Assembly (NCBI GenBank): GCA_001657395.1
Contig: LYSY01000003.1
Span: 372,001-436,000 of the forward strand
Source of the DNA: Rhodospirillales bacterium BBD 1991-14
Lineage (GTDB): Bacteria > Pseudomonadota > Alphaproteobacteria > Kiloniellales > Kiloniellaceae
DNA: 64,000 nucleotides
Reading direction: 5' to 3'
The position numbers were made by a program, and so were the translations under genes. Below, in pieces: positions 34,897 through 39,328 of the stretch. Every line of letters starts with the position of its first letter. Position 1 is the first letter of the stretch. The notes beneath the pieces are model-generated. The model was not told the origin of the DNA. It saw only the letters and a program-made list of their open reading frames with translations, and did no database searches.

Positions 34897-36210
34897 TCAG
34901 GCCGCCCGGGCCGTGCCCTTGACCGCGGCGGTCAGAGCCTGGTCAAGATCGGCCAGGATGTCGTCGATGTGCTCGATGCCGACGGAAAGACGCAGGTAGC
35001 CCGGCGTCACGCCGGTGGCGAGCTGCTCTTCCGGCTTCAGCTGCTGATGCGTCGTGCTGGACGGATGGATGGCCAGGGTGCGCGTGTCGCCGATGTTGGC
35101 GACGTGGTAGATCATCTGCAGGGCGTCGATGAAGGCCGCGCCGGTTTCCGTGGTCGCGTCCTTGATCTCGAAGCCGACAAGGCCGCCCTTGCCCTCGGGC
35201 AGATAGGTCTCGGTGCGTTCGCTGCGGTCCTCCGGCGTCATGCCCGGATAGATGACCTTGGCAACCCGCGGGTCCTTGGCCAGGAAGTCGGCCACCGCCT
35301 GGGCGTTGCTGCAGTGCTCGCGCATGCGCAGGGACAGCGTCTCCAGGCCTTGGATGAAGTTGAAGGTATTGAAGGGGCTGAGCGCCATGCCGAGGTCGCG
35401 CTGCAGCGTGCAGCGGGCCTTCACGATGTAGGCCACCGGGCCCAGTTCCTTCGTCGCCTCGGTCCAGACCGCGCCGTGGTAGCTGGGGTCCGGCTGGTTG
35501 AGCAGCGGAAAGCGCTCGGCATGCTTCACCCAGTCGAAGCTGCCGCTGTCGACGATGACCCCGCCGATGGAATTGCCATGGCCGCCGATGTACTTGGTGC
35601 AGGAATGCACGATGATGTGGGCCCCATGGTCGAAGGGCCGGCAGATGATCGGCGAGGCCGTGTTGTCCATGATCAGCGGCACGCCCAGTTCGTCGCCGAT
35701 GGCCGCCACCTCGCGGATCGGGAAGACCTGCAGCTTGGGGTTCGGCAGGGTCTCGGCGTAGTAGGCGCGGGTCCGCTCGTCGGTGGCGCGGCGGAAGTTC
35801 TGCGGGTCCTCCGGGTCGACGAAGCGCACCTCTATCCCCATGGTCTTCAGGGTATTGGCGAAGAGGTTCCAGGTGCCGCCGTAGAGGTCGGTGGAGGACA
35901 CGATGTTGTCGCCGGCCTGGGCGACGTTCAGCACGGAGAGCGTGGTCGCCCCCTGGCCGGAACTCAGCGCCAGGGCGGCCACACCGCCTTCGATCGCGGC
36001 GATGCGCTGCTCGAAGACGTCGTTGGTGGGGTTCATGACCCGGGTGTAGATGTTGCCCATCTCCGAAAGGTCGAAGAGCCGCGCCGCATGGCCGGAGTCA
36101 TTGAACTGGTAAGACGTCGTCTGATAGATCGGAACCGCCACCGCATTGGTGGTGGGATCGGCACGGTAGCCGGCGTGGAGGGCAAGGGATTCCGGCTTCA
36201 TGGTTGTCAT
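34897..36210 (-). CDS. metY: O-acetylhomoserine sulfhydrylase (aminocarboxypropyltransferase)
   Basis: A 437-residue PLP enzyme of the Cys/Met metabolism family. It makes homocysteine from O-acetyl-homoserine and sulfide. Features: ALHAGYRADPTTNAVAVPIYQTTSY, SSGQGATTLSVLN, PLIMDNTASPIICRPFDHGAHI, PLP lysine in VHSCTKYIGGHG, and THQQLKPEEQLATGVTPGYLRLSVGIEH. Start ATG 36210 follows GAGGACACC. It ends an operon with a homocysteine S-methyltransferase and an alpha/beta hydrolase, so sulfide assimilation into methionine is the theme. No SAM-II-like riboswitch was seen before it. Confidence 0.95.
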   Translation of the reverse strand: MTTMKPESLALHAGYRADPTTNAVAVPIYQTTSYQFNDSGHAARLFDLSEMGNIYTRVMNPTNDVFEQRIAAIEGGVAALALSSGQGATTLSVLNVAQAGDNIVSSTDLYGGTWNLFANTLKTMGIEVRFVDPEDPQNFRRATDERTRAYYAETLPNPKLQVFPIREVAAIGDELGVPLIMDNTASPIICRPFDHGAHIIVHSCTKYIGGHGNSIGGVIVDSGSFDWVKHAERFPLLNQPDPSYHGAVWTEATKELGPVAYIVKARCTLQRDLGMALSPFNTFNFIQGLETLSLRMREHCSNAQAVADFLAKDPRVAKVIYPGMTPEDRSERTETYLPEGKGGLVGFEIKDATTETGAAFIDALQMIYHVANIGDTRTLAIHPSSTTHQQLKPEEQLATGVTPGYLRLSVGIEHIDDILADLDQALTAAVKGTARAA

Positions 36211-36290: not shown

Positions 36291-37235
36291 TCAGGCGACA
36301 AGCGTGCCCGCCGGCGCCGGGGCAACGGCCCAGAGGCGGCGGTTTTCGGCCCGTTCGATGTGGTAGATCACCGCCGCATTGACGGCCGTCGTGTGCGTCA
36401 CGGGGGCCATGTGCCCGGCCCCGAAGATCCGCGTTGCGCGGACGTTGTCCCCGGCTTCGATCAGCAGTTCGGCGATCTGCCCGGTGACTTCCGGCGAACG
36501 CTCCCCGCTGACGACCTGGATCGGAAAGGTCAGCGGTGTCAGATCGTCCAGCAGCCAGGCTTCGTTGAGAACGGCTTCGAAGTTCCGCAGCACAGCCTTG
36601 GCCTGGCGCGCCAGGATCTGGCGGCGCGGCAGGTCCATGCTGTGCCAGGCGCCCTCGCCGGACCAAAAGTCGACGAAAGCGCCCATGCCGTGAGCCGGCC
36701 AGCCCGCCGCCACTGCCCCGCGCACGCGGTCGCGTACGCCGAGGATCTGCCGTTCCAGCCTGGCGCCCGGGCCCCCGGCCTGGCGCAGGAGGTGGAACAG
36801 AACCGGTTCGATCAGGGTCAGGCTGCGGACCCGCTGCGGTGCCAGCATGGCGAGCTTCAGCGCTACGGCGCCGCCGTAGGAGTGGCCGACGAGGTGGAAC
36901 GAACCGCCCAGATCCAACGAATTGCCCGCCGCGCCGGCCTGGGCCAGCAGCCAGCGGGCCTCGGTTTCCAGGTTGGCCGCATGCATCAAGGTGGCAGAGT
37001 CGGCCGCCGTACCGTAACCGGGCAGATCGGGGGTCAGCACGTCCCGCTCCCAGGCGAGACTCTGCGACAACGCCTTCCACTGGCCCCCGAGCGAGGCAGA
37101 GCTGTGCAGCGCCAGCAGCGGCCAACGGGGGCTTGCCCGGTCCTCCGGGAATGCCTCTCCGCCCACAGGGGGCTGTGCCCGCGAGTCGAAACCGGTGTCG
37201 CGCGCTGAGGCGCGATGGTATGCGGCGCCGATCAT
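36291..37235 (-). CDS. Alpha/beta hydrolase in the methionine operon
   Basis: A 314-residue alpha/beta hydrolase. Nucleophile elbow HLVGHSYGGAVAL, oxyanion-region LLALHSSASLGGQW, and the catalytic histidine in GAGHMAPVTH are clear. It lacks the GPSMGG-type elbow of MetX, so it is not the standard homoserine acetyltransferase. It sits between a homocysteine methyltransferase (3 bp gap) and metY (80 bp gap), on one transcript. The substrate is unknown. Confidence 0.83.
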   Translation of the reverse strand: MIGAAYHRASARDTGFDSRAQPPVGGEAFPEDRASPRWPLLALHSSASLGGQWKALSQSLAWERDVLTPDLPGYGTAADSATLMHAANLETEARWLLAQAGAAGNSLDLGGSFHLVGHSYGGAVALKLAMLAPQRVRSLTLIEPVLFHLLRQAGGPGARLERQILGVRDRVRGAVAAGWPAHGMGAFVDFWSGEGAWHSMDLPRRQILARQAKAVLRNFEAVLNEAWLLDDLTPLTFPIQVVSGERSPEVTGQIAELLIEAGDNVRATRIFGAGHMAPVTHTTAVNAAVIYHIERAENRRLWAVAPAPAGTLVA

Positions 37236-37238
37236 GGA

Positions 37239-38252
37239 CTAGGCGGCCTTGGCCGCTGTGCAGGCCCGGCAGATCGCCTCGATGTGGCGGTGGTCGGTTC
37301 CGCAGCAGCCGCCGAGCACGGTGATGTGCTGCATCGCCCCATGCAGGGCGCGGATCTGCTGACCGAGTTCCTCCGGATTGCCGTCGTCGAGGTCCTCGGC
37401 CTCGTCCAGTTCGGCATGGCTGAGGCAGGAGGCGTTGGCGCGCAGCCCCTTGATCCGGCTGACCCAGGCTTCGCCCGGCTTCAGGGTCCCGTCGAAGTGA
37501 GTCGGATGGGCGCAGTTGATCATGAAATAGGCGGGACCGTTGCCGGTTGCCGTGTCGACTGCCGCGATGGCTTCCTTCATGCTCTGCCCTGACGGCAGTC
37601 GCCCGTCGGTCTCGACGGTGAAAGAGATCACGACCGGCATGCCTTCGGCCAGAGCCGCGCGGGCCAGGCCGATGGCCTCGTCGACGTAGGTCATGGTGAT
37701 GGCCGTGATCAAGTCCGCCTCGGAGCGGGCGAAAGCGCGGATCTGTTTGCGGTGGTAGGCTTCCGCTTCCATCGCGGTCATCATCCGGCCCGGATCGTAG
37801 CCGTCGCCACGCGGCCCGATGCAGCCGCTGATCACCATCGGCGTATCCGGGCCTTCGAAGTCTTCGCGCAGGGCGGCAAGGAAGGTGATGGAGTCGAGGT
37901 TGACCTCTGCGATATCCGCATCCGAATACCCGAGCTTCCGGCCCCAGTCGGAAGAGGCACGCCAGGTCGGGCTTTCGAAGACGAAACCGAGATCGTTGGA
38001 CCGGGCGATCTCCGCATAGCGCGAGAAGTAGCGGCGCAGGGCATCACGGCCCTCGCGCTTTTTCATCAGATCGAAAGCGGCAAAATGCGGCAGCTCGAAG
38101 CCGTCGTGAAAAATCAGGGTTGTTTCGATCCCGCCATCGGTCAGAAACAGCCCGCCGTCCAACTGCGGCAGCCTGGCGCGGTACTTGGCCTGGCGCCCGT
38201 TCTTGTTCGGGGCCCCGTTTTGGGCCTTGGACGGACTCTGGGGTACGGACAT
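37239..38252 (-). CDS. Homocysteine S-methyltransferase family protein
   Basis: A 337-residue zinc methyltransferase of the betaine/S-methylmethionine-homocysteine type. Zinc-binding cysteines are in YFMINCAHPTHF and LGGCCGTDHRH; the N-terminal LTDGGIETTLIFHDG is diagnostic. It would methylate homocysteine to methionine using S-methylmethionine, betaine or a related donor; the donor cannot be read. Start ATG 38252 follows GGGAG with 8-nt spacing; this Shine-Dalgarno is buried in a predicted hairpin (38254-38306). It opens the met operon. Confidence 0.9.
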   Translation of the reverse strand: MSVPQSPSKAQNGAPNKNGRQAKYRARLPQLDGGLFLTDGGIETTLIFHDGFELPHFAAFDLMKKREGRDALRRYFSRYAEIARSNDLGFVFESPTWRASSDWGRKLGYSDADIAEVNLDSITFLAALREDFEGPDTPMVISGCIGPRGDGYDPGRMMTAMEAEAYHRKQIRAFARSEADLITAITMTYVDEAIGLARAALAEGMPVVISFTVETDGRLPSGQSMKEAIAAVDTATGNGPAYFMINCAHPTHFDGTLKPGEAWVSRIKGLRANASCLSHAELDEAEDLDDGNPEELGQQIRALHGAMQHITVLGGCCGTDHRHIEAICRACTAAKAA

Positions 38253-38253
38253 T

Positions 38254-38306
38254 GGGGTCTCCCGGTTCGGAACAGCGCATAAGTTCCGGCGACGGGAGGG
38301 CACCCT
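38254..38306 (-). promoter_or_regulatory. Leader hairpin hiding the ribosome site of the homocysteine methyltransferase
   Basis: On the transcript, GGGU plus CUCCCG pair with CGGGAG plus ACCC (10 bp with a 3-nt bulge), and inside this CGGAAC pairs with GUUCCG around a 9-nt loop. The Shine-Dalgarno GGGAG lies within the helix, 8 nt before the AUG. This suggests translational control, by a ligand, protein or temperature. It does not resemble the SAM-II core that I can recall. Confidence 0.5.
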
Positions 38307-38407
38307 AGCGGCGGTCTATTTCTCCATGATTTCGCGAATCAGAAACAAAGGAAATGTATCGCGGCAACGCTGAAACGAAGCCGACGCCCTCGAATTCTCC
38401 TTTAAAA

Positions 38408-39328
38408 TCAGGATATTGCCTCGAACCTCAAGGCCTCTTCGGCGGCGTTCAGCGGGCCGGAGCAATCGATGCGGCGGGTGTCGCCGGCCAGCTTGTCATA
38501 GGACGGCGCGCGCAGCGAGACCCGCAGATCGACGACCTGCAGCAGCTTGGCTCCGGTGTCCTCGAAGCGGCTGGTCCAGAAGTGGCCGCTGGGCTGAAAG
38601 GCGCTGCCCAGGTACCAGCTGGCGGCGTCCGGCCCCTGCGGGGCCTCCGCCACCAGCGCATCGACAAGGCGGCGGAACTGGACCACGCAGCCTTGCGTGG
38701 TGCGTGCGGCGGCGGGCACAAAGAACGAGGCCGAGAGGCGGATCCGCCCGTCGCGCCAGCGGTAGGTGGCGCTGCTGCGCGGCGGCACGTTGGCGAAGTC
38801 CTCCTGCCCGAGCTGCAGGCTGGCGCGATGAAGATCGCGTTCGAGGTTGGCGAGCCCCCAGTCGAAGAGCGTGAGAGGCTCCCGCTGAAGCCGGCGCAGG
38901 ATGTCGTTGCTGCGTTGAGGTCTTTGAGGGGCCACGGGTCGTTGAGGAGCCGGAGGTGTGGCCTCGTTGCCGGAGGTCCCGGAGGAGGTCCCGGAAGATG
39001 CCCCGGGAGATGCCCCGGGAGATGCCCCGGGAGATGCCCCGTGCGGCGGCGCCTCGACCGACACCGGCACCGCCACCGGCGACAGGCCTTCCGCGGCCAT
39101 GACCGCCGCGCTGGCGTTCATCGGATTTGCGCTGATCGGATTGGCGCTGGTCAGACTGGCGCTGGTCAGACTGGCGCCGATCACCAGCAGCAGCACCATC
39201 CAGATGTCAGTCGACGCAGTTGTTCCTGCGCCACCGCCATCTGCACCCGCGCCATCTGCACCCGCGCCATCTGCACCCGCGCCATCTGCACCCACGTCAC
39301 CCGCACCCATGCGAAACGTCACCGCCAT
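38408..39328 (-). CDS. Membrane-anchored protein with three tandem-repeat tracts (hypothetical)
   Basis: A 306-residue protein not recognised as a known family. Order: Gly/Ala/Asp-rich N-terminus in GAGAD steps, a hydrophobic helix (about 42-53, DIWMVLLLVIGA), an Ala/Ser/Asn repeat, a GASP-type repeat, then a folded C-terminal domain from about residue 140 (SNDILRRLQREPLTLFDWGLANLERDL to the end). The three repeat tracts have periods of 15, 15 and 12 bp and stay in frame. Start ATG 39328 follows GGAGAG. The C-terminal part looks like a compact periplasmic domain; its role is unknown. Confidence 0.7.
   Translation of the reverse strand: MAVTFRMGAGDVGADGAGADGAGADGAGADGGGAGTTASTDIWMVLLLVIGASLTSASLTSANPISANPMNASAAVMAAEGLSPVAVPVSVEAPPHGASPGASPGASPGASSGTSSGTSGNEATPPAPQRPVAPQRPQRSNDILRRLQREPLTLFDWGLANLERDLHRASLQLGQEDFANVPPRSSATYRWRDGRIRLSASFFVPAAARTTQGCVVQFRRLVDALVAEAPQGPDAASWYLGSAFQPSGHFWTSRFEDTGAKLLQVVDLRVSLRAPSYDKLAGDTRRIDCSGPLNAAEEALRFEAIS
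38973..39044. repeat. 12-bp tandem repeat, six units
   Basis: Unit GATGCCCCGGGA, three exact copies (38997-39032) with diverged units on both sides. It encodes GASP/GTSS steps in the repeat-rich protein. Confidence 0.93.
39114..39188. repeat. 15-bp tandem repeat, five units
   Basis: Unit GCGCTGGTCAGACTG, two exact copies (39144-39173) flanked by diverged ones. It encodes five-residue steps such as TSASL and ISANP. Confidence 0.9.
39226..39300. repeat. 15-bp tandem repeat, five units
   Basis: Unit CTGCACCCGCGCCAT, three exact copies (39241-39285) with a diverged unit at each end. It encodes the GAGAD-type N-terminal steps. Confidence 0.93.

Follow-up and report, generated by a model that had tools for sequence, protein, structure and literature searches.

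A predicted hairpin over the ribosome site of a Pelagibius-like methionine operon: leader stem or promoter DNA

Does the short leader of a methionine operon fold over its own ribosome site, and does such a fold act as a switch? The question was raised by a window of 64,000 nucleotides (the whole stretch of DNA analyzed) from Rhodospirillales bacterium BBD 1991-14, contig LYSY01000003.1, for which a sequence-only reading had placed a Shine-Dalgarno (SD)-hiding hairpin in front of a homocysteine methyltransferase operon. The placement was correct: the first gene matches PF02574, genes for an alpha/beta hydrolase and an O-acetylhomoserine sulfhydrylase follow it (Table 1), and the operon is a Pelagibius-like one for methionine. 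Two Pelagibius records, with identities of 92% and 80%, were the closest named relatives. A close orthologue was found in seven of the eight same-genus genomes compared (own included), the exception being G003, and the methyltransferase, hydrolase, and sulfhydrylase genes were grouped in all seven, where the hydrolase frame of the own locus, L121, and L125 was detected only as a partner of the frames in other genomes. The gene upstream of the operon lies on the same strand in the own locus, L121, L122, and L125, and is divergent in L123 (an Omp85 type by Pfam), L124, and L126. Additionally, the frame at 38411-39328 had no Pfam match and includes short repeated units at 38990-39045 (around GATGCCCCGGGA) and 39235-39300 (around CATCTGCACCCGCGC).

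Table 1. Positions in the window of the operon, the predicted leader fold, and the candidate elements upstream of it.
Feature	Coordinates	Strand	Basis or detail
O-acetylhomoserine sulfhydrylase (MetY type), operon gene 3	34897..36189	minus	start approximate
Alpha/beta hydrolase, operon gene 2	36291..37235	minus	
Homocysteine S-methyltransferase (PF02574), operon gene 1	37239..38252	minus	Pfam
Leader, invariant TAG to ATG; two stacked helices	38250..38307	minus	predicted fold
Outer helix 3' arm, CGGGAGACCC, carries SD	38255..38264	minus	predicted fold
Shine-Dalgarno GGGAG, 6 nt from ATG at 38252	38259..38263	minus	sequence
Inner helix 3' arm, GUUCCG	38268..38273	minus	predicted fold
Inner helix 5' arm, CGGAAC	38283..38288	minus	predicted fold
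Outer helix 5' arm part 2, CUCCCG, anti-SD	38293..38298	minus	predicted fold
Outer helix 5' arm part 1, GGGU; within possible -10 box	38302..38305	minus	predicted fold
Candidate -10 box TAGGGT; all seven genus leaders keep its T, A, G, and final T	38302..38307	minus	putative -10 reading
Short frame TTG TTT ... AAA TAG, 10-11 codons, [LM]-F-x-x-[RQ]-[ED]-I-[MI]-x-K	38316-38348	minus	
Block conserved in letters, without structure; GTTTCA, followed after 29-31 nt by TGTTTCN8GAMATCATNNRGAAAT	38318..38376	minus	putative protein-binding site

Folding of positions 38254-38306 (minus strand) returned the proposed hairpin of two stacked helices with the GGGAG ribosome site in the stem. The outer helix consists of 10 bp (4+6, GGGU/ACCC and CUCCCG/CGGGAG) with a 3-nt bulge, and the inner helix (CGGAAC/GUUCCG) of 6 bp. 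The fold energy was -23.8 kcal/mol with a z of -2.63, equaled by two of 200 shuffles, and the predicted SD sits paired in a stable helix, so that the leader is SD-sequestering by prediction. The z varied with the frame: the 58-nt stretch between and including TAG and ATG gave -3.16, one 9 nt longer -2.25, one of 101 nt -0.45, and one of 211 nt -0.02. In the 101- and 211-nt folds CUCCCG/CGGGAG and the inner helix persisted, and the GGGU paired with coding letters instead.

The limits of the leader (TAG to ATG) were picked after the folds had been seen, for which a six-length test against background leaders of the genome compensates in part. Background genes came from a crude caller (255 genes in 464 kb, with uncertain starts); the sets of 184 and 157 leaders include the own gene, and the set of 156 excludes it. 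The best z of six lengths was as low as that of the own leader in 10 of the 156 other leaders, and the corresponding counts for all seven genus leaders were 10 (own), 23, 26, 10, 38, 38, and 6. Burial of the SD as complete as in the own leader was found in 4/184 (own gene included). SD burial was weak in L086 (34% unpaired) and L089 (41%), where 58/157 and 72/157 background leaders were as buried, and the SD of L090 was 20% unpaired by the SD definition of that burial test. The hairpin of the own leader is above chance, yet not rare in its own genome.

These counts bear on an explanation by chance, which states that, in a GC-rich genome, good folds arise readily from C-rich letters beside a G-rich SD and that recurrence among relatives reflects shared descent. 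It gains from the 16 of 157 background leaders (own included) with an SD less than 5% unpaired, and from the six-length test, in which single leaders were not extreme. It has to contend with a form that persists among relatives while the letters differ: all seven same-genus leaders, taken from TAG to ATG, took the same general form, in which an outer helix encloses the SD and an inner hairpin follows. For example, the CUCCCG/CGGGAG of the own leader is CUCCCA/UGGGAG in L084, L085 has GCCU/AGGC where the own leader has GGGU/ACCC, and the outer helix of L090 comprises 10 bp. The z values (own first) were -3.16, -2.09, -1.84, -3.02, -1.89, -1.69, and -3.50, and 1, 6, 11, 1, 10, 13, and 1 of 200 shuffles folded as well. 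Addition of 9 coding nt weakened them to -2.25, -1.29, -0.62, -2.26, -0.91, -0.98, and -2.46.

Covariation of the pairing in relatives, which the sequence-only reading had named as a check, gave a mixed outcome. When the own structure was mapped onto the nearly gapless alignment, 70.5% of the cells were paired and the covariation score was 0.250; both values were reached by none of 500 shuffles and exceeded all six slid versions, although relatedness alone can lift these two values above the controls and a structure derived from a single row has an advantage. Seven cells were changed on both sides, a number reached by 2/500 shuffles. The two measures most resistant to spurious signal gave unexceptional values: two-sided changes occurred in 4 of 16 pairs (reached by 82/500 shuffles and also by the slide of +3), and 13 further pair types were counted (reached by 67/500). 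Some pair-keeping change is present in the relatives; paired cells and covariation score stood out from the controls, and the two-sided pairs and pair types did not. In permutation tests run without L083, which is near-identical to the own leader, the inner-helix halves suited their own partners over the halves of other species (14/720 permutations as good), and the outer-helix arms were interchangeable across species (108/720). RNAalifold did not recover the own pairs and returned weak other pairs at -2.82 kcal/mol. The only motif kept within the hairpin was CC[AG]T[TC]GC, which is partly unpaired in the own leader and mostly paired in the others.

The pairing of each 5' arm with its 3' arm was equaled after letter shuffling of the 5' arm in 25, 33, 16, 5, 48, 66, and 6 of 500 cases, and background 15-mers at the same place equaled the own 5' arm in 6, 6, 19, 3, 9, 13, and 1 of 184. 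Of the 184 background SD regions, 32 to 110 were equally good partners for the own 5' arms, and self-pairing as good as in the genus leaders occurred in 18 to 52 of the 184 background leaders. Random spacers composed from the letters of the seven species concealed the SD to the same degree in 26, 30, 7, 66, 56, 189, and 21 of 300 draws. Chance is favored by the interchangeable outer arms, by two-sided pairs and pair types not clearly above shuffles, and by random spacers that often did equally well, and is opposed by paired cells and a covariation score above every control and by inner halves that suit their own partners. Because of the unexceptional covariation measures and the random-spacer control, the odds of a working inhibitory stem were lowered and those of chance raised, although we still regard chance as unlikely. 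Support for a kept hairpin form is moderate and rests on its recurrence, with the covariation drawn from seven related sequences.

A second explanation takes the 5' arm to be promoter DNA. The TAG..T that opens the leader resembles a -10 box, though without a -35 in sight: a sigma-70 promoter scan of 38200-38450 returned no site and no recognisable -35. A terminator scan of the same interval also found none. In regions upstream of genes the pattern TANNNT is uncommon, with a frequency of 0.46% of positions. Promoters of the TTGAC type were represented by one example in 157 upstream regions, which did not identify the -10 consensus of the host. The overlap of TAG..T with the 5' arm means that the arm may be promoter DNA rather than mRNA; if TAG..T served as a -10 box, the greater part of the SD-hiding arm would be untranscribed, and only the inner hairpin would be in the mRNA. 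The promoter explanation accordingly holds TAG..T to be the -10 of an activator-dependent promoter, with the conserved upstream block as its operator, a start at about 38293 near CC[AG]T[TC]GC, and the inner helix as a stem-loop at the 5' end of the mRNA; the SD would be mostly free, and the outer helix a by-product of the C-rich stretch after the -10. It is supported by the invariance of the T, A, G, and last T in all seven leaders, by the CC.T.GC.G that is invariant 6 nt beyond them, and by the block, which TAG..T follows at a fixed distance and whose pattern was seen without mismatch at this locus only. In folds trimmed to a start at about 38293, the SD was 50-85% unpaired, as this explanation would have it. 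The same trimmed folds, however, had z values of only -0.14 to -1.72, versus -1.69 to -3.50 from TAG to ATG, and the 5' arm beats most 15-mers at that distance as a partner of its own SD. The lacking -35 also counts against it. We hold the promoter explanation to be only slightly less likely than the inhibitory stem, its close rival; chance comes next.

The upstream block is conserved in letters, with 29 of 65 columns invariant. Its folds showed no excess or shared structure (z of -0.31, 1.28, 0.38, -0.83, 0.13, and -0.72 in the six of seven folded, L083 left out), and since the block is conserved in letters yet without excess fold, the excess structure is in the hairpin. Among 102 orthologue loci, counted after the removal of five loci judged to be duplicates (L003-L006 and L067), the second part of the block was present in the seven genus loci and in none of the 95 others examined. 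The pattern occurred without mismatch exactly once in each of the seven genomes with the gene; elsewhere in 61 genomes of the order, only scattered sites with two or three mismatches were found, and a regulon search of eight genus genomes by the same pattern yielded a single further site with three mismatches. From AAATRG to ATG the spacing between block and hairpin is nearly fixed at 69-71 nt. Such a pattern of conservation suggests that the block is probably a protein-binding site. A Pfam scan of 14 proteins (12 from the window and two from L123) detected no regulator family; three of the 14 matched no family at all.

A different element was observed at other loci of the gene. A GTACC..GTAC palindrome lies within 400 nt upstream of 9 of the 95 orthologue loci outside the genus (L029, L035, L044, L050, L087, L088, L093, L096, and L101), compared with 21 of 2140 400-mers drawn at random from the loci. 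The palindrome may serve as the operator for a regulator that is not employed by Pelagibius at this operon.

The block could also belong to a larger RNA switch, as the aptamer to which the hairpin would be the expression platform. The nearly fixed distance and the co-occurrence of both parts at this locus are in keeping with such an arrangement, which we nevertheless hold very improbable, as the block had neither excess or shared fold nor an Rfam match. Still less credible is control by a leader peptide, in which a ribosome on the short frame in the block would open the 5' arm. The frame is open in all seven genus loci, starts with TTG in six and ATG in one (L090), and ends 5-8 nt before the hairpin. 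Against this, no clear ribosome site was seen in the 20 nt before the frame (the AGGGG of L090 is only 2 nt from its ATG), the TTT, ATC, and AAA codons are invariant despite the existence of synonymous codons, and L084 and L085 have Ile in place of the Met codon.

Searches for known RNA classes addressed the further proposal of a riboswitch-like regulatory RNA or a thermosensor. At gathering score, Rfam returned only a single tRNA in the whole window and no match in five of the seven genus loci, and a permissive search of 701 nt returned four matches, all at chance level. No match to SAM-V or to other SAM or SAH riboswitches was found at this leader, and the earlier impression that it lacks a SAM-II core was borne out by the absence of RF00521 from its matches. 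The genome had a single SAM-II candidate, on contig C1 (L127:2163-2239, G000:C1:1046662-1046738), which scored 30.1 bits against an Rfam cut-off of 36 and precedes a different O-acetylhomoserine sulfhydrylase gene. A ligand aptamer in this leader is unlikely, because no aptamer-like core was seen within the hairpin, no Rfam family matched, and the SAM-II candidate sits before that different gene; a switch or a thermosensor at this leader is conjectural. We likewise consider it improbable that block and SD-hiding hairpin together form a genus-specific regulatory RNA that would switch translation of the operon through a methionine-cycle metabolite or a ribosome on the leader frame. A literature search on a homocysteine riboswitch with a Shine-Dalgarno in alphaproteobacteria found nothing, and no title on this leader was among the matches listed for Pelagibius.

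Our tentative preference is for a leader stem that inhibits translation and has no pocket for a ligand, transcribed from a regulated promoter. A regulator would bind the conserved upstream DNA block; the whole hairpin would be transcribed, and the RNA leader would fold such that the outer helix pairs the ribosome site and presumably lowers translation of the first gene. The stem would be opened by thermal breathing, by the arrival of a ribosome, or by some helper, with no built-in pocket for a ligand. If transcribed and working, such a stem would act as a minimal brake on the translation of a methionine operon; the only SAM-II candidate found in this genome precedes another sulfhydrylase gene. 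More generally, the same letters can belong to both a promoter and a leader hairpin, which makes such hairpins easy to misread from DNA alone.

Methionine control in Proteobacteria, as described in the excerpted text of a comparative study (PMC4239095), includes MetJ, MetR, SahR (which binds a 20-bp palindrome), SamR, and the RNA elements SAH, SAM-SAH, SAM_alpha, and metXZ; none of the controls in that excerpt resembles this leader. According to the same text, SAM_alpha was found only in the Rhizobiales and Rhodobacterales of the study set. SAM-II (SAM_alpha, RF00521) precedes metY in alphaproteobacteria (PMC4239095, in excerpt), and the leader described here differs in having no match to it. 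In the excerpted account of SAM-V (PMC5069961), this riboswitch stands before mmuM, metY, and bhmT of Ca. Pelagibacter ubique; the kind of target gene and the occlusion of the SD are the same, whereas the present leader has no aptamer core or Rfam match. The metXZ element of beta-proteobacteria (PMC4239095, in excerpt) is likewise an uncharacterised RNA element before methionine genes, but it is followed by a potential terminator hairpin and U tract, and the leader here has no terminator-like site. With SD-sequestering leader hairpins as a group, simple inhibitory stems and RNA thermometers alike, the leader shares a Shine-Dalgarno that by prediction is paired in a stem just ahead of the start codon. 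It differs from them in that neither ROSE nor fourU was among its Rfam matches, its gene is not a heat-shock gene, and its 5' arm is only putatively transcribed.
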